A stretch of DNA of 64,000 nt, taken from Gammaproteobacteria bacterium (lineage in GTDB: Bacteria > Pseudomonadota > Gammaproteobacteria > Enterobacterales > Permianibacteraceae). Position 1 is the stretch's first letter. The number at the start of each line of letters is the position of its first letter. A program made the position numbers and the translations under genes. Of this stretch, positions 1 to 15,324 are shown one piece after another. The stretch is taken from contig JACPFT010000010.1 of NCBI GenBank assembly GCA_016182845.1, positions 1-64,000 of the forward strand. Reading direction: 5' to 3'. Below the pieces are notes generated by a model. That model saw nothing but the letters and a program-made list of their open reading frames with translations. It searched no databases and was not told where the DNA came from.

Positions 1-69
1 GCCGCCGCCCGCGACCTGCACCAGCTGGGCCTGAGGCTGAAGCAGCTGGCGGGGCAATTCCAATTATGA
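1..69 (+). CDS. C-terminal tail of a methyl-accepting chemotaxis protein (partial)
   Basis: Frame 1 is open from the window edge and ends at TGA 67-69, giving 22 residues that finish LKQLAGQFQL. An amphipathic helix ending in G-Q-F plus one hydrophobic residue is the usual end of a chemoreceptor (MCP) signalling domain. The next genes encode a CheA-type kinase and a CheB-type esterase, as expected downstream of a receptor gene. Only the tail is visible, so the sensory domain and full length are unknown. The identification rests on the short C-terminal pattern plus context. Confidence 0.6.
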   Translation, partial: AAARDLHQLGLRLKQLAGQFQL

Positions 70-159: not shown

Positions 160-183
160 CACCCGATGACGAGGAGGCCCGCC

Positions 184-2439
184 ATGGCCGGCGATAAGGA
201 GGCCCTGCGCCAGCGCCTGCTGGTCGCCTTCCGCGAGGAAGCGGGCGAGCGCATGCAGCTCCTGGCGGACGGGCTGGCGCGCTTGCAGCAGGGGGAGGTC
301 AGTTCCGAGCTTATCGAGGATCTGTACCGGGAGGTGCACAGCCTCAAGGGCGCGGCGCGCGTGGTCAATATCCCGGGCCTGGGCCGGGTGCTCCAGGACT
401 GGGAGAGCCTGTTCGCGGCCCTAAGGCGTGGCAGCGTGAGCTGGGAGCCGGAGCTGTACGAGCTGGCGGTGGCTCCGCTCAAGCTCCTGAGCCAGAGCCT
501 GAAAGGCGCGGAGCTGGAGGAGATCGCGCTCATTCCCCTGTGCCAGAACCTCGCCGCCGCCGCCCGGGGCGCGGTCTTCGGCCCGGAGCCGCCCGACCCG
601 GGACGCCCCGGCCTGGAAGGTCCCGGTCCGGAAGCCCGCCCGCCGCCGCCCGCGCCGGTCGCCAGATCCGAAGCGCCGCTCCTGGGCACGGTGCGCGTGC
701 CGACCGAACGCCTGGATAGTCTCCTGGGCCTGAGCGAGGAAGCCTTGTCGGTCAAGCTCGAGGCCCAGTCCCATGCCGACGAGCTGCGCCTGGCCTTGGG
801 CGAATTCGCGCCCCTGCGCGCTCACCGCGACGGCGCCAGCCAGGCGCTGCGCCAGCTGCGCGGCAAGGGCGAGGCACTGCCGCCGCGCCTGCAGGAGGCC
901 TTGCGCGCCCTGATGGACTACACCAGCTGGAGCCTGGACTACCTGGACCAGTGGCATTTCCGCGTCAACCGTCTGTCCCGAACCGGCGGCCATCTGGCCC
1001 ACGGCCTAAGCGCCCTGACCGAATCCCTGCAGGATCGCCTCCAGGGCGTACTGCTCATGCCCTGCCAGAGCCTGGCCGAGGGCCTGCCGGCCATGACCCA
1101 GGACATCGCCGCCCAGACCGGCAAGCAGGCCCTGTTGTCGGTCAGCGGCGCCGAGCTGCAGGTGGACAAGCGCATCCTCGACGAGCTGAAGAATCCCCTG
1201 GAGCATCTGCTGCGCAATGCCGTGGCCCACGGCCTGGAGACCCCCGAGGCGCGGCTCGCCGCCGGCAAACCGGCCCAGGGCCGCATCGTCCTGAGCTTCC
1301 GCCACGAGCAGGGCGACCGCTTCGAACTGGTCCTGGAGGACGACGGCGCCGGCTTCCAGGCCGAGGCCCTCAAGGCCAAGGCCGTGGCCCAGGGCCTCAT
1401 GGACGCCGAGCAGGCGGAAGCCCTGGAGCCGGCGGCGGTCTGGCAGCTGGCCTTCGCCTCCGGCCTGTCCACCAGTCCCATGCTCACCGAGCTGTCCGGC
1501 CGGGGCTTGGGACTGTCCATCGTGCGCGACAAGCTGGAGCGCCTGGGCGGACGCCTGGAACTGGACACCGAGCCGGGCCGGGGCAGCCGCTTCCGCCTGG
1601 ACCTGCCCCTGGCCTTCGCCACCTACCGGGCGCTACTGGTCCGGGTCGCCGACCAGCTCTACGCCCTGCCGGCCCAGGCCGTACAACGAGCCTTGCGCGT
1701 GCCCGCCTCGGCCCTGCTGCGCGCCCAGAACCGCCCGGTCCTGCGCTGGGAGGACGAACATCTGCCGTTCTGGACCCTGGCCCAGGTCCTGGGCATCGCC
1801 GCCGCGCCGGCCGAAGGCGACTGGCTGCCGGTGGTCCTTCTGGACCTGGGCGGGCAGCGCCTGGCCCTGGGCGTGGACGGCATCCTGGGCGACCAGGAGA
1901 TCACCGTGCGGCCCCTGGGCAGGCTCATCAAGCGCCTGCGCAATGTCATGGGCGCGGCGGTCCTCGGCGACGGCCGCATCGCCCCCCTGCTGCATGGCCA
2001 GGATCTGCTGCAAAGCGCCCAGGCCTGCGAGGGCGAGCCGATCTCGGCCCTGCCCCAACCGGAACGGCCGGCACGGCGCCAGCGCGTCCTGATCGCCGAG
2101 GATTCCTTCACCTCGCGCGGCCTGCTCAAGTCCATCCTGGAATCGGCCAGCTACGAAGTCATGACCGCCGACGACGGCCTGGAGGCCTGGCGGCTGCTCA
2201 AGCAGGGCGATTACGACCTCCTGGTCTCGGATGTGGAGATGCCCCATCTGAACGGCTTCGACCTGACCGAGAAGCTGCGCGCCGACCGGGAGCTGAACGA
2301 GCTGCCCGTGGTCCTGGTCACCGCCCTGCAGTCCGCCGAGGACCGGGCGCGCGGCCTGGATGCCGGGGCCGATGCCTATATCGTGAAAAGCAGTTTCGAG
2401 CAGGACAACCTGTTGGACGTGGTACGCCGGCTGATCTAA
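184..2439 (+). CDS. cheA: CheA-type hybrid histidine kinase with C-terminal receiver (WspE-like)
   Basis: This 751-residue chemotaxis-type kinase would take signals from the upstream receptor and pass phosphate to CheB and to the output regulator. The domains are an HPt domain (phospho-acceptor His52 in VHSLKGAA), a CheA-like ATPase (N-box near Asn345, GRGLGLSI near residue 439), a CheW-like coupling domain (about 480-613) and a receiver (about 633-751, Asp683 in VSDVEMP). A single HPt plus a terminal receiver is the WspE layout and differs from classical flagellar CheA. The ATG at 184 is chosen because GAGGAGG lies 7 bases upstream. An in-frame ATG at 166 has no such site. The cheB gene follows after 22 bases and the GGDEF-EAL output gene after that, so these form one operon. 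No CheW, CheR or CheY gene is visible; they would lie to the left. Confidence 0.92.
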   Translation: MAGDKEALRQRLLVAFREEAGERMQLLADGLARLQQGEVSSELIEDLYREVHSLKGAARVVNIPGLGRVLQDWESLFAALRRGSVSWEPELYELAVAPLKLLSQSLKGAELEEIALIPLCQNLAAAARGAVFGPEPPDPGRPGLEGPGPEARPPPPAPVARSEAPLLGTVRVPTERLDSLLGLSEEALSVKLEAQSHADELRLALGEFAPLRAHRDGASQALRQLRGKGEALPPRLQEALRALMDYTSWSLDYLDQWHFRVNRLSRTGGHLAHGLSALTESLQDRLQGVLLMPCQSLAEGLPAMTQDIAAQTGKQALLSVSGAELQVDKRILDELKNPLEHLLRNAVAHGLETPEARLAAGKPAQGRIVLSFRHEQGDRFELVLEDDGAGFQAEALKAKAVAQGLMDAEQAEALEPAAVWQLAFASGLSTSPMLTELSGRGLGLSIVRDKLERLGGRLELDTEPGRGSRFRLDLPLAFATYRALLVRVADQLYALPAQAVQRALRVPASALLRAQNRPVLRWEDEHLPFWTLAQVLGIAAAPAEGDWLPVVLLDLGGQRLALGVDGILGDQEITVRPLGRLIKRLRNVMGAAVLGDGRIAPLLHGQDLLQSAQACEGEPISALPQPERPARRQRVLIAEDSFTSRGLLKSILESASYEVMTADDGLEAWRLLKQGDYDLLVSDVEMPHLNGFDLTEKLRADRELNELPVVLVTALQSAEDRARGLDAGADAYIVKSSFEQDNLLDVVRRLI

Positions 2440-2461: not shown

Positions 2462-3469
2462 ATGGCTGTATTGATCGTCGACGACTCGCCCCTGGTGCGC
2501 CAGCTCCTGCGGCATATCCTGGAATCCGCCGGCCTGGACGTCATCGAGGCCGGCGACGGCCACCAGGCCCTGGAGCTGGTGACCCATTGGCGCCCCGAAG
2601 TCATCACCATGGACATCCATATGCCGGGCCTGGACGGCTATCAGACCACGGAGCGCATCATGCAGCGCCAGCCGACCCCCATCCTGGTGGTCACCGGCAG
2701 CTCCAAGCTCAAGGAGGCGCAGAGCGCCATGCGCGCCCTGGATGCCGGCGCCCTGGCGGTCCTGGAAAAGCCGCGCGGGCCGGATCACCCGGATTTCGAG
2801 CGCGACGCGGCGGCCGTGGCCCAGGCCGTCTTGATGGCCAGGGACGTGCGTTTCCGGGATCGCTGGCAGGGCCATCTCAGTCCCATCGAACCCTGGTCCG
2901 GCGAACTGCGCCTGCTGGCCATCGGCGCCTCCGCCGGCGGTCCCCAGGCCCTGAAGACCCTGCTGCGCTCCCTGCACCCGGCCTGCCCCTGGCCCATCCT
3001 CCTGGTCCAGCACATCGCCCCCGGCTTCCTGGAATCCTTCCGCGAATGGCTGGGCGGCCATACCCGCATGCCCGTGCACATCGCCGAGGACGATCAGACC
3101 GCCCTGGCCGGGCATATCTATCTGGCCCCCGACGGCCGCCACCTCGTCCTGGGCCGGGAGTTGCACCTGGTCCTCAGCGACCAGCCGCCGGTCCAGGGCC
3201 AGCGCCCGGCCGTCACCCAGCTGTTCGCCAGCGTGCGCGAACAGCTGGGAGCCCGAGCCGTGGCCATCCTGCTCTCGGGCATGGGCCGGGACGGCGCCGA
3301 GGAGCTTCTGGCCCTGCGCCGCCAGGGAGCCCTCACCCTGGTCCAATCCCCGGACACGGCCCTGATCAACGGCATGCCCGGAACCGCCGCGGCCCTGGGC
3401 GGTGCGAGCCAGGTCCTGACGCCGGAGCAGATGGCCTTGTTGTTGAACACCGCGATGGGGCTGCCATGA
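2462..3469 (+). CDS. cheB: Chemotaxis-type protein-glutamate methylesterase CheB (WspF-like)
   Basis: This 335-residue protein has an N-terminal receiver (Asp51 in TMDIHMPG) and a C-terminal methylesterase domain. The catalytic triad is visible as Ser157 (GASAGGP), His184 (VQHIAPGF) and Asp277 (GMGRDGAEE). It should demethylate or deamidate receptor glutamates to reset the signalling array, with activity controlled by phosphorylation from the upstream CheA-like kinase. Full CheB proteins are about 350 residues, so it is complete. AGGAGC precedes the ATG. The stop codon overlaps an upstream in-frame ATG of the next gene (ATGA at 3466-3469), which indicates translational coupling. In Wsp systems the equivalent WspF tunes c-di-GMP output, and the following gene fits that role here. 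Confidence 0.95.
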   Translation: MAVLIVDDSPLVRQLLRHILESAGLDVIEAGDGHQALELVTHWRPEVITMDIHMPGLDGYQTTERIMQRQPTPILVVTGSSKLKEAQSAMRALDAGALAVLEKPRGPDHPDFERDAAAVAQAVLMARDVRFRDRWQGHLSPIEPWSGELRLLAIGASAGGPQALKTLLRSLHPACPWPILLVQHIAPGFLESFREWLGGHTRMPVHIAEDDQTALAGHIYLAPDGRHLVLGRELHLVLSDQPPVQGQRPAVTQLFASVREQLGARAVAILLSGMGRDGAEELLALRRQGALTLVQSPDTALINGMPGTAAALGGASQVLTPEQMALLLNTAMGLP

Positions 3470-3492: not shown

Positions 3493-6400
3493 ATGTACAA
3501 AGCACCGCACATCCTGGTCGTCGAAGACAGTCCCACCCAGGCCTTGCAGTTGCAGAGCCTGCTGGAGGCCCATGGCTGCCGCGTCACCGTGGCGCGCAAT
3601 GGCGTGCGCGCCCTGGAGCGGGTCGCCGAGGAGCAGCCCACGATCATCATCAGCGACGTGGTGATGCCGGAAATGGACGGCTACACCCTCTGCCAGCGCC
3701 TGAAATCCGCGCCGGCGACCCAGCACATCCCGCTGATCCTGGTCACCACCCTGTCCGATGCCCGCGACGTGGTGCGCGGCCTGGTCTGCGGCGCCGACAA
3801 TTTCATCATCAAGCCCTACGACGAGCGTTTCCTGCTCTCGCGGGTCCGCTATGCCCTGGCCAATATCGAGCTGCGCGGCCAGGAACGCGTGCACATGGGC
3901 GTCGAGGTCCTCCTGGAAGGCGAGCGCCATTTCATCACCGCCGCCCGCCAGCAGATCCTGGACCTGCTGATCTCCACCTACGAACAGGGCATACGCCTGA
4001 ACCAGGAGCTCAAGCACAAGCACGACGAGCTGGCCAAGAGCAACAACCTCCTGGCCAGCCTGTTCCATTTCACCGCCGGCCTGGGCGAGGCGCGCAGCGA
4101 GGCCCAGGTCATCGAGGCCACCCTGGACCGGCTGATGAGCTTTCCCCAAGTATCCAGCGCCTGGCTGCTCTTGCGCGACAGCCTGCACCCGGACGAGCCC
4201 TGGGTCCTGGCCGGCGCCGCCGGCCTGCCGGAGGGCGCCGAGGTCAGCGGCGCCTGCCCCTGCGTGCACGCCATGGCCAGCGACCAGCTGCGCAGCGCCT
4301 GCAATATGGCGTCCTGCCCGACCCTGGGCGGCGTCAGCGCCAGCCATGCCAGCATCCCGCTCATCATCGCCTGCGAGACCGTGGGCGTGGTCAATGTCAC
4401 CAACCAGGAGCGAGAACCCTGGGCGGAAGACGATCTGGAGGCACTCACCTCCCTGGGCCAGCAACTGGCCGTGGCCTTGGGCCGGGCGCGGCTGTTCGAG
4501 AACCTGGAGAAGCTGGTCACCGAGCGCACCAAGGCCCTGCGCCAGAGCGAGGCCCTCTTGCACAAGGTCCTCGACACCCTGCCGGTCAGCGTGCGCGTGG
4601 TGGACAAGGAGGGTGTCATCATCCTGCACAACCCGGAGAGCGAGCAGATCTGGGCCGGGCTCGGATGCCAGATCGGCAAGCCCGCGCCGCTCGGCGCGCG
4701 CTGGGCCGACAGCGGCGAGCTCATTGCCCACGAGGGCCAGGCCCTGGTGCGCGCCGCCCATCGCGGCGAGGCCGTGCGCAACGACATCATCGACATCGAC
4801 AGCGAGAACGGACCGCGCACCCTGCTGCAATCGGCCGTGCCCTTCATGGACGAGGAGGGGCTACAGGGCGCCATCGTCGTCGATCAAGACATCAGCGCCC
4901 AGCGCCGGGCCGATCTGGAGCTGCGGGTGCGCAACCGCGCCATCGAGGCCAGCGTCAACGCCATCGTGATCACCGACGCCAAGCGCCCGGACCAGCCCAT
5001 CGTCTACGTCAACCACGCCTTCGAACGCATCACCGGCTACCAGCGCGACGAGGTCCTGGGCCACAACTGCCGCTTCCTGCAGGGATACGACCGGGATCAG
5101 CATGAACTGGAAAACATCCGCCGCGCCGTGACGCGCCATACCGAGGGCCATGCCCTGGTGCGCAATTACCGCAAGGACGGCTCCATGTTCTGGAACGATC
5201 TGCACATCGCCCCGGTCAGCGATGCCCAGGGGCGGGTCAGCCATTTCGTCGGCGTGTTCCAGGTAGTCACCGCCAACAAGCGCTACCAGGAAGAACTGGA
5301 ACGGGCCGCCAATTACGACGGGCTCACCGAGCTGCCCAACCGCAACCTGCTCAGCGACCGCATAGGCCAGGCCATCGTCCAGGCCGCCAGCCGCGACGAG
5401 GGCTTCGCACTGGCCCTCATCGATCTGGACAACTTCAAGTACATCAACGACAGCCTGGGTCATGACCGGGGCGATCTGCTGCTCAAGGAAGTGGCCAAGC
5501 GCCTGCGCTCCTGCCTGCGCGAAGTGGATACCCTGGCGCGCCTGGGCGGCGACGAATTCGTCTTGCTCAGACCCCAGACCGACAACCAGGACCAGCTCCA
5601 GGCCACCCTGGAGCGGATGCGCGAACTCTTGGCCAAGCCCATCCAGATCGAGGACCAGGAGCACTTCGCCGGCTGCAGCATAGGCCTGTGCTTCTACCCC
5701 CAGGACGGCGGCGATGCCTCCACCCTGATCAAGAACGCCGACACCGCCATGTACCAGGCCAAGGACCAGGGCAAGAACCGCGTGTGCCGCTTCACGCGGC
5801 GCATGACCGACGAGCTGACCGCCCGCCTGATCCTGGAGCGCGGCCTGCGCCATGCCCTGCAGAACGACGAGTTGGAACTCTACTACCAGCCCCAGCTCGA
5901 TTTGAGGACCGGCTCCATGTGCGGCCTGGAGGCCCTGGTGCGCTGGAACAACGGGGGCCGGCTGATCGGCCCCAATGACTTCATCCCCCTCGCCGAGGAG
6001 ACCGGCCTCATCAAGCCCCTGGACTACTGGGTCCTGCGCCGGGCCTGCACGCAGTTCGTCGAGTGGCAGGCCCACGGTCTGCCCCTGCCCACCGTCTCCG
6101 TCAACCTGTCGGTCAGCACCTTCCAGGATCCCGGCTTCCTGGCCCAGGTCCAGGCGATCCTGGAGAGCACGGGCGCGCCTGCGCGCGGTCTGATGCTGGA
6201 AGTCACCGAGCATATGCTGCTGCATGGCAGCGAGGCCGTGCTCAAGACCATGGCCCAGCTGAAGAACCTGGGTCTGCAGCTGTCCCTGGACGATTTCGGG
6301 ACCGGCTATTCCTCCCTGAGCTATCTGAAGCGCTTCCCCTTCGATCAGCTCAAGATCGACCGCAGCTTCGTCACCGACGTGCTCAGCGATCCGGATGCCG

Positions 6401-7062
6401 CCGAACTGAGCAAGGCCATCATCGGCCTGGGCCACACCCTGGGGATCCGGGTCATCGCCGAGGGCGCCGAGTTCCACGAGCAGATGTGCTTCCTGGCCAA
6501 GGCCGGCTGCGACGAGATGCAGGGCTATTACTACTCCCCGCCCCTGCCCGGCGAGGCCTGCGCCCATTTCCTGTCCCAGGACAAGGTCGTGATTCTGCCC
6601 CTGCGCGACACCCAGGATCACGAGCCCACCCTGCTCCTGGTGGACAAGGAGCCCGCCATCCTCCAATCCCTGAGCCGCGAACTGCGCCAGGAGAACTGGC
6701 GCATCCTGCATGCCGACGGGACGGAGAAGGCCATGCACGAGCTCGCCGCCCAGTCGGTGGACGTGGTCATCGCCGACCAACACCTGCAGACCATGAGCGG
6801 CATCGAGTTCCTGCGCTGCGTGAAGCTGCTCTATCCGGAGACCGTGTGCATCATCCTCAGCGGCTACACCGAGCTCAACACCGTGCTGGCCACGGTCAAC
6901 GAGGGCGCCGTGTTCCGCTTCATCACCAAGCCCTGGGAGCGCGCCCATATGCGCGAGCAGGTGCGCGACGCCTTCCGCCAGGCGGCCCTGCTGCGCGAGC
7001 TCAAGACCCTGCGCGCCGAGCGGGAAGGACGGGGATTCGACAGCCCGGAATCCCCGGCCTAA
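3493..7062 (+). CDS. Multidomain c-di-GMP output protein: REC-GAF-PAS-LOV-GGDEF-EAL-REC
   Basis: This 1189-residue protein makes and/or degrades cyclic di-GMP. It occupies the WspR position after cheB but is over three times longer than WspR. Domains in order: receiver 1-125 (Asp55); GAF about 193-336; PAS about 350-470; LOV about 484-596 with the flavin motif GHNCRFLQG (Cys526), Asn558 and Asn568; GGDEF about 603-766 (GGDEF 685-689, inhibitory RxxD 676-679); EAL about 775-1025 (EAL 813-815, DDFGTG from 933, AEGAE instead of the usual AEGVE); C-terminal receiver about 1044-1170 (Asp1095). Both enzymatic signatures are intact, so the net activity cannot be read from sequence. The ATG at 3493 has AAGGAT 7 bases upstream. 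An ATG at 3466 that overlaps the cheB stop is an alternative. Phosphorylation by the CheA-like kinase and blue light are two possible inputs. Confidence 0.93.
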   Translation: MYKAPHILVVEDSPTQALQLQSLLEAHGCRVTVARNGVRALERVAEEQPTIIISDVVMPEMDGYTLCQRLKSAPATQHIPLILVTTLSDARDVVRGLVCGADNFIIKPYDERFLLSRVRYALANIELRGQERVHMGVEVLLEGERHFITAARQQILDLLISTYEQGIRLNQELKHKHDELAKSNNLLASLFHFTAGLGEARSEAQVIEATLDRLMSFPQVSSAWLLLRDSLHPDEPWVLAGAAGLPEGAEVSGACPCVHAMASDQLRSACNMASCPTLGGVSASHASIPLIIACETVGVVNVTNQEREPWAEDDLEALTSLGQQLAVALGRARLFENLEKLVTERTKALRQSEALLHKVLDTLPVSVRVVDKEGVIILHNPESEQIWAGLGCQIGKPAPLGARWADSGELIAHEGQALVRAAHRGEAVRNDIIDIDSENGPRTLLQSAVPFMDEEGLQGAIVVDQDISAQRRADLELRVRNRAIEASVNAIVITDAKRPDQPIVYVNHAFERITGYQRDEVLGHNCRFLQGYDRDQHELENIRRAVTRHTEGHALVRNYRKDGSMFWNDLHIAPVSDAQGRVSHFVGVFQVVTANKRYQEELERAANYDGLTELPNRNLLSDRIGQAIVQAASRDEGFALALIDLDNFKYINDSLGHDRGDLLLKEVAKRLRSCLREVDTLARLGGDEFVLLRPQTDNQDQLQATLERMRELLAKPIQIEDQEHFAGCSIGLCFYPQDGGDASTLIKNADTAMYQAKDQGKNRVCRFTRRMTDELTARLILERGLRHALQNDELELYYQPQLDLRTGSMCGLEALVRWNNGGRLIGPNDFIPLAEETGLIKPLDYWVLRRACTQFVEWQAHGLPLPTVSVNLSVSTFQDPGFLAQVQAILESTGAPARGLMLEVTEHMLLHGSEAVLKTMAQLKNLGLQLSLDDFGTGYSSLSYLKRFPFDQLKIDRSFVTDVLSDPDAAELSKAIIGLGHTLGIRVIAEGAEFHEQMCFLAKAGCDEMQGYYYSPPLPGEACAHFLSQDKVVILPLRDTQDHEPTLLLVDKEPAILQSLSRELRQENWRILHADGTEKAMHELAAQSVDVVIADQHLQTMSGIEFLRCVKLLYPETVCIILSGYTELNTVLATVNEGAVFRFITKPWERAHMREQVRDAFRQAALLRELKTLRAEREGRGFDSPESPA

Positions 7063-10563: not shown

Positions 10564-10746
10564 GGTATTCCCGCTCAAATCACCGAGGGACGGCCTCGGC
10601 CGGATGCAGGCACCATGGAGCATGGACTCCGCGCTTTCAAGCCCCAGCGCTAGGAATGCGCGCGAAATTCTTTAGCCTTGACCGGACTGGGGTTTTTGGC
10701 CAGCCTTGGATCATGCCCCGCGCCACCGAGCTCGCCCGGAGTCCTC

Positions 10747-13700
10747 TTGGTCCAGCACGCCTCTCCACCCCGCCCCCCGGCACTACCGATGCTCCTGGCG
10801 CTCGCCCTGGTGCTGGGGCCGGGCCTGGGCTGGTGCGGGAGTCTGGCGGCCTCGCCCCCCGATTCCCCGCGCTTCGAACACCTGGGCAGCCGCGAGGGCC
10901 TGACCCAGAACACGGTCAACACCCTGTTCCAGGACAGCCACGGCATCCTCTGGGTCGGTACCCAGGGCGGCCTGCACCGCTACGACGGCAACAGCTTCCA
11001 GGTCTATCTGCACGAGCCCGACAACCCCCATAGCCTGTCGGACAGCTACGTGACCCAGATCGCCGAGGACGCGCGGGGCAATTTGTGGATCGGCACCCTG
11101 TTCGGCGGCCTGAATCGCCTGGATCTGGCCAGCCGCCGCTTTCAACACATCGGTCAGCTGCAAGGCCTGGGCAGCGACTTGATCCACAGCCTGCAGGCGG
11201 ACGGTGGACGCCTCTGGGTCGGCCATGGCGCCGGCCTGGATGCCATCGACACCCAGACCCTCGCCATCACCCGCGCGGCCGAACCGGAGCTGCACGAACC
11301 GGCCACCGCCCTGGCACGCCTGCCCGACGGCAGCCTCGCCATAGGCACCCAGAACGGCCGGCTCTGGCAACGCCTGCCCGATGGTCGGCTCAAGCCCTTG
11401 GCCAGCCTGCCTCCCGCTACGCGCATCAACGCCCTGGCCGTCGACGGCCCGGATCGGCTCTGGTTCGCCGCCGGCCCGGAGCTGTGGCTACACCTGCTGT
11501 CCGGCGGCGAAACCAAGGCCTATTGGCGGGCCGATGCCGCCGAGGGCCAGAGCATTAGCGCCCTGCAGCCGGACCCCGTCGGCCGGCTCTGGCTCAGCGG
11601 CCCGGCCCTGGGCCTGGTGGGTCTGCATATCGCGGACCCGGAACTTCCGCCCCTGCGCTACCATCACCATCCGGAACAGCCGGACAGCCTGGGCAACGAC
11701 CATACCCGCAGCCTGCTGCTGGATCGCTCCGGCGTCCTCTGGCTGGGCAGCAATTTCGCCGGCCTGGACAAGCTGGCCTTGAGCGCCAACCAGTTCCAAC
11801 GCCTCCTGGACACCAGCCCCGGCCTGTCCCGACTGACCGTCAACAATGTGCGCAGCGTGCGCGAGACCCGGGACGGCCGGCTATGGATAGGCACCGAGGG
11901 CGCCGGCCTCAAGTCCTGGGGAGCCGGCGACAGCGCCTACCGCTACCATAACGACTTGTTCGCCAAGGCCACCGGTATCCCCGAGGCCAAGCTGGGCCTG
12001 CGCGTCTTCGCCTTACGGGAACAGGCCGACGAAACCCTGTGGATAGGCACGAACCTGGGCCTGGCGCGCTGGCGCCGACCCCTGGCCCCCGGCGTGCCGG
12101 CCGATTTCCGCCTGTTCCGCCACCGGGACGGCCAGACCGGCAGCCTGCCGGCGGATTTCGTCCGCCGCCTCATGCTCGACCGCCAGGGCCGGATCTGGGC
12201 CGGCACCGACGCCGGCCTGGCTCGCTACCAACCCCAGACCGAGGATTTCCAGCACATCCCCGTGCCCCAGCCCAAGACCCAGGCCACCAGCGCCCTGGTC
12301 CTGACCATGAACGAAGATGTGGACGGCAGCATCTGGGTCGGCACGGTCAACGGCCTGGAGCTCTACGACCCGGTCAGTGGGGCTTTTCGCAGCTTCCGCC
12401 ACCGCATGGACGCCAAGGACAGCCTCAGCGACAACCGCGTGCGCAGCATCCACCTGGCCCGCGACAAGACCCTGTGGATAGGAACCCACAGCGGCCTCAA
12501 CCAGCTGCTGCGCGACCACAGAGGCGACCACCGCTTCCGCCATTACCTCAGCCAGGAAGGCCTGGCCAACGACACCATTTACGGCATCCTGGAAGACAGC
12601 CAGGGACGCCTATGGCTAAGCACCAACCGGGGCATTTCCCGCTTCGAGCCCGAGACCGGACGATTCCGGCAGTACGACGAGCGCGACGGCCTGCAAGGCG
12701 CCGAATTCAACGGCGGCGCGGCCTACGCAAGCCCTAGCGGCGAGCTGTATTTCGGCGGCATCGCCGGCCTGAACCGCTTCCGCCCCGAGGCCATCGCGGA
12801 CAGCCAGTTCCGCCCGCCCATCCTGCTCACCGCCCTGCGCGTCGGCAACCGCCGAACGGCCCTCTCGGATCCGCGCCCGCCCGCGGAGATCCGCGTCGAT
12901 TATGCCGACCGCATCCTGGGCCTGGAATTCGCCGCCCTGGATTACGGCGCCCCGGAACGCAACCGCTATGCCTACCGCCTGGAAGGCTTCGACAAGGACT
13001 GGATCGACAATGGCAACAAGCGCGAGCTGACCTACACCAACCTGGATCCCGGCGGTTACCGCCTACTCATCAAGGCCAGCAACAAGGACGGCATCTGGAA
13101 CGAGACGCCGCTCTCCGTGCCCTTGTACGTGATCCCGCCCTGGTACCGGACCCCGCTGGCCTACGGCGGCTACGCCCTGGTCCTGGCCGGTTTCGGCGGC
13201 TATCTCGCCTGGGCACGCCACCGCAAGCACCTGGCCCAGGCTCGCGCCACCGCCGCCATCGCCGAATCGGAAGAGCGCCTGCAACTGGCCCTCTGGGGCT
13301 CCGGCGACGGCCTCTGGGACTGGAACATCCAGTCCGGCTATGTCTACCGCCAGGGCCTGGATTTCCTGCAATACGCCGACGACGAGATCGCCCCCTCCGT
13401 GGACGGCATGAAGAGCCTGATCCACCCGGACGACCGCCTGCTGTACCAGTCGCCCCTGGATGCCCATCTGCGCGGCGACAGCGACTACTACGAAGCCGAG
13501 TACCGACTGCGCGCCCGCGACGGCCAATGGCACTGGATCCAGGACCGGGGCAAGATCGTCGAGCGCGATGCCAGCGGCCAGCCCCTGCGCATCGCCGGCA
13601 CCCACAAGGACATCACGGCGCGCAAGCTGGTGGAGAAAGATCTGCGCCTGGCGGCCCAGGTGCTCAGCGACATGGCCGAGGCCGTGGTGGTCGCCGATCT

Positions 13701-15324
13701 GGAGTTCCGCATCGTCGCGGTCAACCCGGCCTTCACCCGTATCACCGGTTACCAGGCCCAGGAAACTCAAGGTCGGGACGTGGACTTCCTCAATTCCCCG
13801 CGCCACGAACCGGAGTTCTACGACAACCTGCGCCGGACCCTGAACGAGAAACACGAGTGGCATGGCGAGATCTGGCAACGCCACAAGAACGGCCACGACG
13901 TGCTCATGGACCTGGAGCTGAACCTGGTCCAGGAAAGCAATGGCCGGCATACCCACATCGTCGGCGTGTTCAGCGATATCACCGAGCGCAAGCGCGCCGA
14001 AGAGGAACTGCGCTTCCTCGCCAATTACGACACCCTGACCACATTGCCCAACCGGACCCTGTTCCAGGAGCGCCTGCGCCATGCCCTGAGCCAGGCCAAG
14101 CGCCAGAAGCACTACGTCGCCCTGCTCTTCCTGGATCTCGACCGCTTCAAGCACATCAACGATTCCCTGGGCCACCATGTGGGCGACCTGCTCCTGCAGG
14201 AAGTCGCGCGCCGACTCGGCCTCTGCGTGCGCGAGGACGACACTGTGGCGCGCCTGGGCGGCGATGAATTCACCATCATCGTCGAGGCCTTGCACAATGC
14301 CAAGGCGGCCACCGTGGTGGCGGAGAAAGTGCTCGCCAAATTCAAGCAGCCCTTCCTGCTGGAAGGCCGGGAAGTCGTGGTCTCGCCCTCCATTGGCATC
14401 AGTATCTACCCCAGCGACGGCGAGGATGCCGCCAGCCTCGTGAAATTCGCCGACTCGGCCATGTACCACGCCAAGGAACTGGGTCGGAACAATTTCCAGT
14501 TCTACACCCAGGAGCTGAATGCCTACGCCATGCGCCGCATGCAGCTGGAAACCGCCCTGCGCCGCGCCATGGAGAGCGATGAATTCCGCCTGGTTTTCCA
14601 ACCCAAGGTCGCCGTGGACGGCGAGCTCGTCACCGGCGTGGAAACCCTGGTGCGCTGGGATTCCCAGGAAGTGGGCGCGGTCTCGCCCATGGAATTCATT
14701 CCCCTGGCCGAGGAAACCGGCCTGATCGTGCCCCTGGGCGAATGGGTCCTGCGCCGCGCCTGCCAGCAATACATGACCTGGCGCGCCCTGGGGCTTTCCG
14801 GCTTCACCATCGCCGTCAACCTGTCCGCCCGGCAATTCCATAAGGGCGATGTCTCGGGCGTGGTGCAGAAAATCCTCGCCGATTGCGAGATGCCGGCCGA
14901 ATGCCTGGAATTGGAATTGACCGAATCGGTGGTGATGGAAAAGGCCGAGGCCTCCATCACCATGCTCAATCAACTGAAAGCCATGGGCCTGAAATTATCC
15001 GTGGACGATTTCGGTACCGGCTATTCCTCACTGAGCTATTTGAAGCGCTTCCCTATCGACACCTTGAAAATCGACCGGGAATTCGTCCGCGATATCTCTT
15101 CCGACCCGGAAGACGCCGCCATCACCAGCGCCATCATCACCCTGGCCCATACCCTCAACCTGCGGGTGGTCGCCGAGGGCGTGGAAAATCTCAACCAGCT
15201 GGAATTCTTGAAGGCACGCGGCTGCGACGAGATTCAAGGCTATTACTTCAGCCGGCCGCTGGACGCGGAGGCATGCGAGGAGTTCCTGCGCCGCCATGGC
15301 GCGGCGGGAAAAACCGCGGTTTAA
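10747..15324 (+). CDS. Periplasmic beta-propeller sensor fused to PAS-PAS-GGDEF-EAL
   Basis: This protein of about 1525 residues turns over c-di-GMP. After a signal-like segment come many Reg_prop repeats of the LWVGT-x-GGL type (roughly residues 30-690), a Y_Y_Y domain (GFDKDWIDNG, about 720-790) and one membrane span near 810-830. The cytoplasmic part has two PAS domains, a GGDEF domain with intact GGDEF and upstream RxxD (REDD), and an EAL domain whose signature reads ETL but which keeps DDFGTG, LKIDREF and AEGVEN. The N-terminal half resembles the sensors of hybrid two-component proteins, here with a c-di-GMP output instead of a kinase. The start is uncertain: TTG at 10747 follows CGGAG and leaves Arg before the hydrophobic stretch, ATG 10789 has no ribosome site, and TTG 10678 opens the frame. 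It is convergent with ubiX. Confidence 0.9.
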   Translation: MVQHASPPRPPALPMLLALALVLGPGLGWCGSLAASPPDSPRFEHLGSREGLTQNTVNTLFQDSHGILWVGTQGGLHRYDGNSFQVYLHEPDNPHSLSDSYVTQIAEDARGNLWIGTLFGGLNRLDLASRRFQHIGQLQGLGSDLIHSLQADGGRLWVGHGAGLDAIDTQTLAITRAAEPELHEPATALARLPDGSLAIGTQNGRLWQRLPDGRLKPLASLPPATRINALAVDGPDRLWFAAGPELWLHLLSGGETKAYWRADAAEGQSISALQPDPVGRLWLSGPALGLVGLHIADPELPPLRYHHHPEQPDSLGNDHTRSLLLDRSGVLWLGSNFAGLDKLALSANQFQRLLDTSPGLSRLTVNNVRSVRETRDGRLWIGTEGAGLKSWGAGDSAYRYHNDLFAKATGIPEAKLGLRVFALREQADETLWIGTNLGLARWRRPLAPGVPADFRLFRHRDGQTGSLPADFVRRLMLDRQGRIWAGTDAGLARYQPQTEDFQHIPVPQPKTQATSALVLTMNEDVDGSIWVGTVNGLELYDPVSGAFRSFRHRMDAKDSLSDNRVRSIHLARDKTLWIGTHSGLNQLLRDHRGDHRFRHYLSQEGLANDTIYGILEDSQGRLWLSTNRGISRFEPETGRFRQYDERDGLQGAEFNGGAAYASPSGELYFGGIAGLNRFRPEAIADSQFRPPILLTALRVGNRRTALSDPRPPAEIRVDYADRILGLEFAALDYGAPERNRYAYRLEGFDKDWIDNGNKRELTYTNLDPGGYRLLIKASNKDGIWNETPLSVPLYVIPPWYRTPLAYGGYALVLAGFGGYLAWARHRKHLAQARATAAIAESEERLQLALWGSGDGLWDWNIQSGYVYRQGLDFLQYADDEIAPSVDGMKSLIHPDDRLLYQSPLDAHLRGDSDYYEAEYRLRARDGQWHWIQDRGKIVERDASGQPLRIAGTHKDITARKLVEKDLRLAAQVLSDMAEAVVVADLEFRIVAVNPAFTRITGYQAQETQGRDVDFLNSPRHEPEFYDNLRRTLNEKHEWHGEIWQRHKNGHDVLMDLELNLVQESNGRHTHIVGVFSDITERKRAEEELRFLANYDTLTTLPNRTLFQERLRHALSQAKRQKHYVALLFLDLDRFKHINDSLGHHVGDLLLQEVARRLGLCVREDDTVARLGGDEFTIIVEALHNAKAATVVAEKVLAKFKQPFLLEGREVVVSPSIGISIYPSDGEDAASLVKFADSAMYHAKELGRNNFQFYTQELNAYAMRRMQLETALRRAMESDEFRLVFQPKVAVDGELVTGVETLVRWDSQEVGAVSPMEFIPLAEETGLIVPLGEWVLRRACQQYMTWRALGLSGFTIAVNLSARQFHKGDVSGVVQKILADCEMPAECLELELTESVVMEKAEASITMLNQLKAMGLKLSVDDFGTGYSSLSYLKRFPIDTLKIDREFVRDISSDPEDAAITSAIITLAHTLNLRVVAEGVENLNQLEFLKARGCDEIQGYYFSRPLDAEACEEFLRRHGAAGKTAV

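Follow-up and report, generated by a model that had tools for sequence, protein, structure and literature searches.

A LOV-GGDEF-EAL protein without the conserved glutamine of the Iβ strand, and with a LOV-GGDEF part that responds to blue light, is already known in Mesorhizobium loti (WP_140774521.1), where Met occupies the relay site (PMC9098866). The LOV-GGDEF portion of one such natural protein is light-repressed in cells, from 145 to 30 Miller units (PMC9098866). In Synechococcus elongatus SL2, also a LOV-GGDEF-EAL protein, the LOV domain is described as canonical and blue light controls c-di-GMP breakdown (PMC8846402). LadC proteins are defined by a LOV-GGDEF arrangement, a D(I/V)(T/S) motif and a linker of 21 or 35 residues. 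The short-linker group (21 residues), to which AoLadC and DpLadC belong, is activated about 15-fold by light; in LOV-GGDEF pieces taken from two LOV-GGDEF-EAL proteins whose linkers are equally long, synthesis was not regulated by light, and one of these pieces lacks a working GGDEF motif (PMC10396304). The Wsp pathway of Pseudomonas combines a chemoreceptor, CheR-TPR, two CheW, CheA-REC and CheB with a c-di-GMP response regulator, WspR, which consists of REC and GGDEF domains (PMC5907407). Receivers fused to GGDEF, EAL, PAS or GAF domains are known in CheR-TPR clusters, the term LOV having no occurrence in the main text of the paper that describes them (PMC3447774), and the output enzyme of the Halomonas Wsp-like cluster is a different one (PMC5907407).

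The protein described here is encoded near the start of the window, that is, of the whole 64,000-nucleotide stretch analysed, and it resembles each of these systems in part. Like the M. loti protein it carries a Gln-less LOV domain before GGDEF-EAL, but the relay site holds Phe, or Leu in its homologues, and the sections of the M. loti report drawn on here do not mention a chemosensory cluster (PMC9098866). With SL2 it shares the LOV-GGDEF-EAL order, the passages on SL2 consulted mentioning neither receiver nor GAF (PMC8846402). Its LOV-GGDEF linker has the length found in AoLadC and DpLadC, 21 residues by the published rule, in which the count starts at the DIT Asp site and ends with the Leu of DxLT. 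Those proteins, however, are LOV-GGDEF only, whereas the window protein lacks the Asp of D(I/V)(T/S) and adds receivers, GAF, PAS and EAL (PMC10396304). Where WspR has two domains, it has seven (PMC5907407). The best explanation of the whole, held with reasonable though not strong confidence, is that it serves as the output enzyme of a Wsp-like pathway in which light and a chemoreceptor cue jointly set c-di-GMP. The locus suggests that there are chemosensory clusters in which the enzyme at the output end is probably a photoreceptor as well, an arrangement not met in those parts of the open-access literature that were searched.

The Wsp-like setting proposed in the earlier note is borne out by the neighbouring genes (Table 1). 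The window begins at the start of its contig, inside the chemoreceptor gene. A CheR match (49% identity) led to another contig, C5, the end of which carries CheW, CheR-TPR, CheW and a chemoreceptor start (4HB, HAMP) running off the contig; this is probably the start of the gene cut at the window's first position, the two contigs being putatively joined there. Genes for MCP, CheW, CheR-TPR, CheA-REC, CheB and the c-di-GMP output enzyme are hence all present, on two contig ends, and if these are taken as adjacent, no component of a Wsp-like set seems to be missing, the first half of the cluster lying on the other contig. In Pseudomonas sp. PIC25, CheR, CheW, chemoreceptor and CheA are consecutive (domains assigned by eye), and CheA, CheB and the LOV protein were found by tblastn and blastp. 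The chemoreceptor gene comes first in the Wsp pathway of Pseudomonas, but follows the second cheW in the window cluster. A second large c-di-GMP enzyme, with Reg_prop propeller, Y_Y_Y, PAS, GGDEF and EAL domains, is encoded at 10678-15324; its last PAS domain has no LOV cysteine motif.

Table 1. Chemosensory genes and parts of the LOV-containing protein in the window
Feature	Position	Strand	Basis or remark
Chemoreceptor, last 22 codons and stop	1..69	+	Translation; by-eye comparison with another chemoreceptor end
CheA-type kinase, Hpt-HATPase-CheW-REC, WspE-like	166..2439	+	Domain search
CheB-type methylesterase, REC-CheB, WspF-like	2462..3469	+	Domain search
REC-GAF-PAS-LOV-GGDEF-EAL-REC protein	3493..7062	+	1189 aa; wspR position; translation and Pfam domains
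N-terminal receiver (aa 7-118), Asp55	3511..3846	+	Pfam; presumed target of phosphotransfer from the CheA kinase
GAF domain (aa 200-329), conserved Cys255, Cys257, Cys275	4090..4479	+	Pfam and alignment
PAS domain without LOV motif	4555..4896 (approximate)	+	Translation, domain search
LOV domain (aa 481-594)	4933..5274	+	Profile, PDB sequence matches, predicted fold
Cys526, presumed adduct-forming Cys	5068-5070	+	Cys in 16/16 orthologous LOV domains compared
Asn558, equivalent to AsLOV2 Asn482	5164-5166	+	Alignment
Asn568, equivalent to AsLOV2 Asn492	5194-5196	+	Alignment
Phe589 (TTC) at Gln513 site; Leu in orthologues	5257-5259	+	Alignment
Val591 at DIT-motif Asp site	5263-5265	+	Asp in 100/106 filtered LOV domains
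GGDEF domain (aa 606-763); GGDEF aa 685-689, RxxD aa 676-679	5308..5781	+	Pfam and motif
EAL domain (aa 785-1017), EAL motif present	5845..6543	+	Pfam and motif
C-terminal receiver, Lys at second position of acidic pocket	6628..6987	+	Pfam and alignment

The LOV domain, which Pfam places as a second PAS at about aa 481-591, contains the motif GHNCRFLQG at aa 523-531, and Asn558, Asn568 and Phe589 lie at +32, +42 and +63 from Cys526. As the earlier note had read, the cysteine and both asparagines keep the spacing of oat LOV2 and Phe589 falls at the site of Gln513, the stretch from Cys526 to Phe589 aligning without a gap to AsLOV2 Cys450-Gln513. A shift of one residue that would put Gln590 at the relay site is thereby ruled out; Gln590 is the next residue along the strand, and the relay Gln of Iβ is absent from the domain. 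Since Phe589 is followed by Q-V-V-T, the Asp of DIT corresponds to Val591. All nine residues of the published LOV filter are present and Gln is not, which places the domain among LOV-deltaQ sequences (at least 8 of 9). In phmmer searches 157 distinct PDB sequences were matched, the best 60 including phototropin, aureochrome, YtvA and generally named LOV chains; the top ones among those listed were 9vf7 (Meiothermus LOV, 46% identical) and 6hmj (RNA-binding LOV receptor). The AlphaFold2 model of the isolated domain (30-row alignment, mean pLDDT 88.3) predicts a LOV fold, again in agreement with the earlier reading, and the best 50 of its 1334 Foldseek matches in the PDB were all LOV or blue-light-receptor entries, headed by MrLOVe (TM-score 0.81). 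The full-length model was too poor for use (pLDDT 68, pTM 0.34, below 50 in the LOV stretch 473-534). Of the 20 positions that we take to contact FMN, after AsLOV2 and excluding the Gln site, the window protein and 16 orthologues share an invariant residue at 13, compared with 29 of the 84 remaining positions (Fisher p = 0.013, in a test that ignores relatedness and depends on this assumed list). Conserved residues and predicted fold together make the domain, with good confidence, a likely blue-light sensor with FMN photochemistry.

The Gln-to-Phe change that had been taken as the event at the relay site proved to be a misreading. A pattern scan of GTDB species genomes gave 86 stretches, 35 of them confirmed as relatives. 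Fifteen homologous loci (L027-L041, from Pseudomonas, Stutzerimonas, Rheinheimera and MAGs) match along the window protein, 14 of them over the full length at 49-56% identity, while L031 ends at a contig end and is 60% identical over 622 columns. Homologues of cheA and cheB lie directly upstream in 14 of the 15. The exception is the Rheinheimera locus (L039, 33-8169), in which the orthologue is preceded by an ORF of 1324 aa and has no cheA or cheB homologue alongside. Every one of the 15 loci carries Leu at the Gln site, encoded by CTC, CTG, CTT or TTG, and a single base change separates an orthologue's CTC from the TTC of the window. Because all 15 carry Leu, Gln was most likely lost before Phe arose and probably before the window genome did, and Phe as the founding change is rejected. 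Phe is a local oddity on top of a probably older Gln loss common to the pseudomonad orthologues.

Closer relatives gave no full-length orthologue, either in the genus (one genome, the window's own) or among 197 genomes of the order at a cut-off of 1e-30, where five other genomes matched the LOV part only. A family search with the LOV query covered three genomes including the window's own, the other two being without a match at 1e-15; the phylum search added two LOV orthologues (in G254 and G544). In a tree built with the trait column masked, the window protein stands beside 16 Leu orthologues (SH-aLRT 84), an Ile-bearing domain coming next (91). This is a quick tree of 95 short rows in which 35 of 92 inner branches are weakly supported and the window protein sits under no starred branch. 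Gln versus non-Gln requires 11 changes among the 95 rows, three of them forced by well-supported branches, which suggests more than one loss of Gln.

Phe at this site is rare. LOV domains were surveyed in 398 phylum genomes and 369 class genomes, at cut-offs of 1e-25 and 1e-35, together with the homologous loci. In most genomes only some 10 candidates were scored, and all 105 phylum-search matches were taken in; after four duplicate rows were dropped no identical rows remain, but near copies do. The 159 LOV-like domains compared (window included) were picked by similarity to the window domain and include its orthologues, and the 106 that pass the published 8-of-9 filter have 72 Gln, 26 Leu, 5 Ile, 1 Met, 1 Val and 1 Phe, the last being the window's. 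Without the 16 orthologues the counts for 90 domains become 72 Gln, 10 Leu, 5 Ile, 1 Met, 1 Val and the same Phe. According to Dietler et al., about 350 LOV domains lack the Gln; most of them have Leu or Ile in its place, and Phe, Tyr and Trp are largely absent (PMC9098866). Gln in most LOV domains, Leu in the pseudomonad homologues and Phe in the window protein form a natural one-site series, in otherwise matching proteins, that could be used to test how LOV domains signal without the glutamine. Two LOV-like domains from beta-proteobacterial MAGs (L043, 2499-2876; L044, 6001-6417) keep the relay Gln and have Pro or Ser in place of the adduct Cys, the reverse of what the window domain shows.

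Gene order and domain content suggest that the membrane chemoreceptor would drive the CheA kinase, which in turn would phosphorylate the N-terminal receiver at Asp55. The LOV domain, judging by its conserved residues and predicted fold, would bind FMN and form a Cys526-C4a adduct in blue light. Without Gln, N5 protonation might reach the Iβ strand through water or a steric change, in line with a published proposal for Leu variants, and the signal would then cross the linker to GGDEF and EAL. GGDEF, RxxD, the EAL motif and the other residues that we take to be catalytic in EAL domains are kept, so that synthesis and breakdown are both feasible, and the protein probably both produces and degrades c-di-GMP, a biofilm messenger. 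As the LOV enzyme lies within a chemoreceptor gene cluster, light and another cue could combine in one protein: phosphorylated Asp55 and the photoactivated LOV domain would act on the same enzyme and together set c-di-GMP. On the likeliest reading the protein is a c-di-GMP enzyme that both blue light and phosphorylation gate; that its output actually depends on light we regard as just the better supposition. A narrower proposal, put forward tentatively as somewhat short of probable, is that of a natural LOV switch that has Phe in the relay position and lacks the DIT Asp, hence has neither usual end of the hydrogen-bond path, and that would gate a phosphorylation-driven c-di-GMP enzyme and integrate light with the chemoreceptor cue. 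The altered passing of the signal that the Gln change had been taken to suggest stands only in part. The relay Gln is usual in LOV domains but dispensable, and since published Gln-less LOV proteins still signal, its loss alone is no proof of a new relay; in YF1, Q123L makes dark recovery 10-fold slower (PMC9098866). Phe589 and Val591 probably retune the coupling in the window lineage and may weaken it.

The LOV domain might bind FMN and photocycle but be uncoupled by Phe589, Val591 and the changed linker, leaving the receiver alone in control of output, an unlikely reading but one with evidence on its side. The linker shows the largest drop in identity, from 91% among 13 Pseudomonadales rows to 73% in Rheinheimera and 60% in the window protein. 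Of the sites that do not vary among 14 orthologues, the window protein departs at 3 of 9 in the linker and at 7 of 50 in the LOV core, and of its 11 such departures in aa 481-605, eight fall at aa 577-605, the domain end and linker. This clustering and the linker drop count against full coupling, as does the missing light regulation in LOV-GGDEF pieces of equal linker length (PMC10396304). The scarcity of Phe at the site also tells against light-gated output, and the linker length shared with the light-activated LadC group tells for it. Conservation of the LOV core argues the other way, as it exceeds that of GGDEF both among the orthologues (79% versus 75%) and towards the window, where mean identity to the 13 rows is 65% for the LOV core, 57% for GGDEF, 54% for EAL, 47% for PAS, 45% for REC2 and 43% for GAF; the LOV core is exceeded only by REC1 (70%) and the helix that follows REC1 (76%). 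Among the relay-site residues named in the text as losing the YF1 light response are Tyr and Trp, with Pro, His and Arg, but not Phe (PMC9098866).

A flavin redox or oxygen sensor, instead of or besides a light sensor, is rather improbable. A parallel is RmcA of P. aeruginosa, a phosphodiesterase with several PAS domains, which likewise shows a LOV-like PAS in a pseudomonad c-di-GMP enzyme and ties it to light and phenazine responses (PMC8846402). The presence of a GAF with conserved cysteines in the window protein would also suit such a role. However, the RmcA domain lacks the adduct cysteine (PMC8846402), which the window domain and all 16 orthologous LOV domains compared retain and for which a pure redox sensor would have no use.

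Profile searches favour the LOV assignment over a plain PAS by score, though not by cut-off: the isolated domain gives 150 bits with NCBIfam YtvA_fam and 133 with the blue-light histidine-kinase model, below cut-offs (250 and 450) set for whole proteins, and 80.9 bits with the generic PAS S-box model, above its own 22.9. A plain PAS domain that resembles LOV only by chance is therefore rejected as very improbable, even though Pfam matches are to PAS families only (PAS_9 first), given the far higher LOV scores, the solved LOV relatives, the predicted fold and the kept FMN contacts.

The C-terminal receiver of the protein varies: five of the 14 orthologues aligned (L029, L030, L034, L036 and L041) have another residue in place of the usual phosphoacceptor Asp. 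All 15 proteins aligned keep the three cysteines of the GAF domain (4255-4317), which possibly form a metal or redox site; position 251 is Cys in the other 14 proteins and Val in the window protein.
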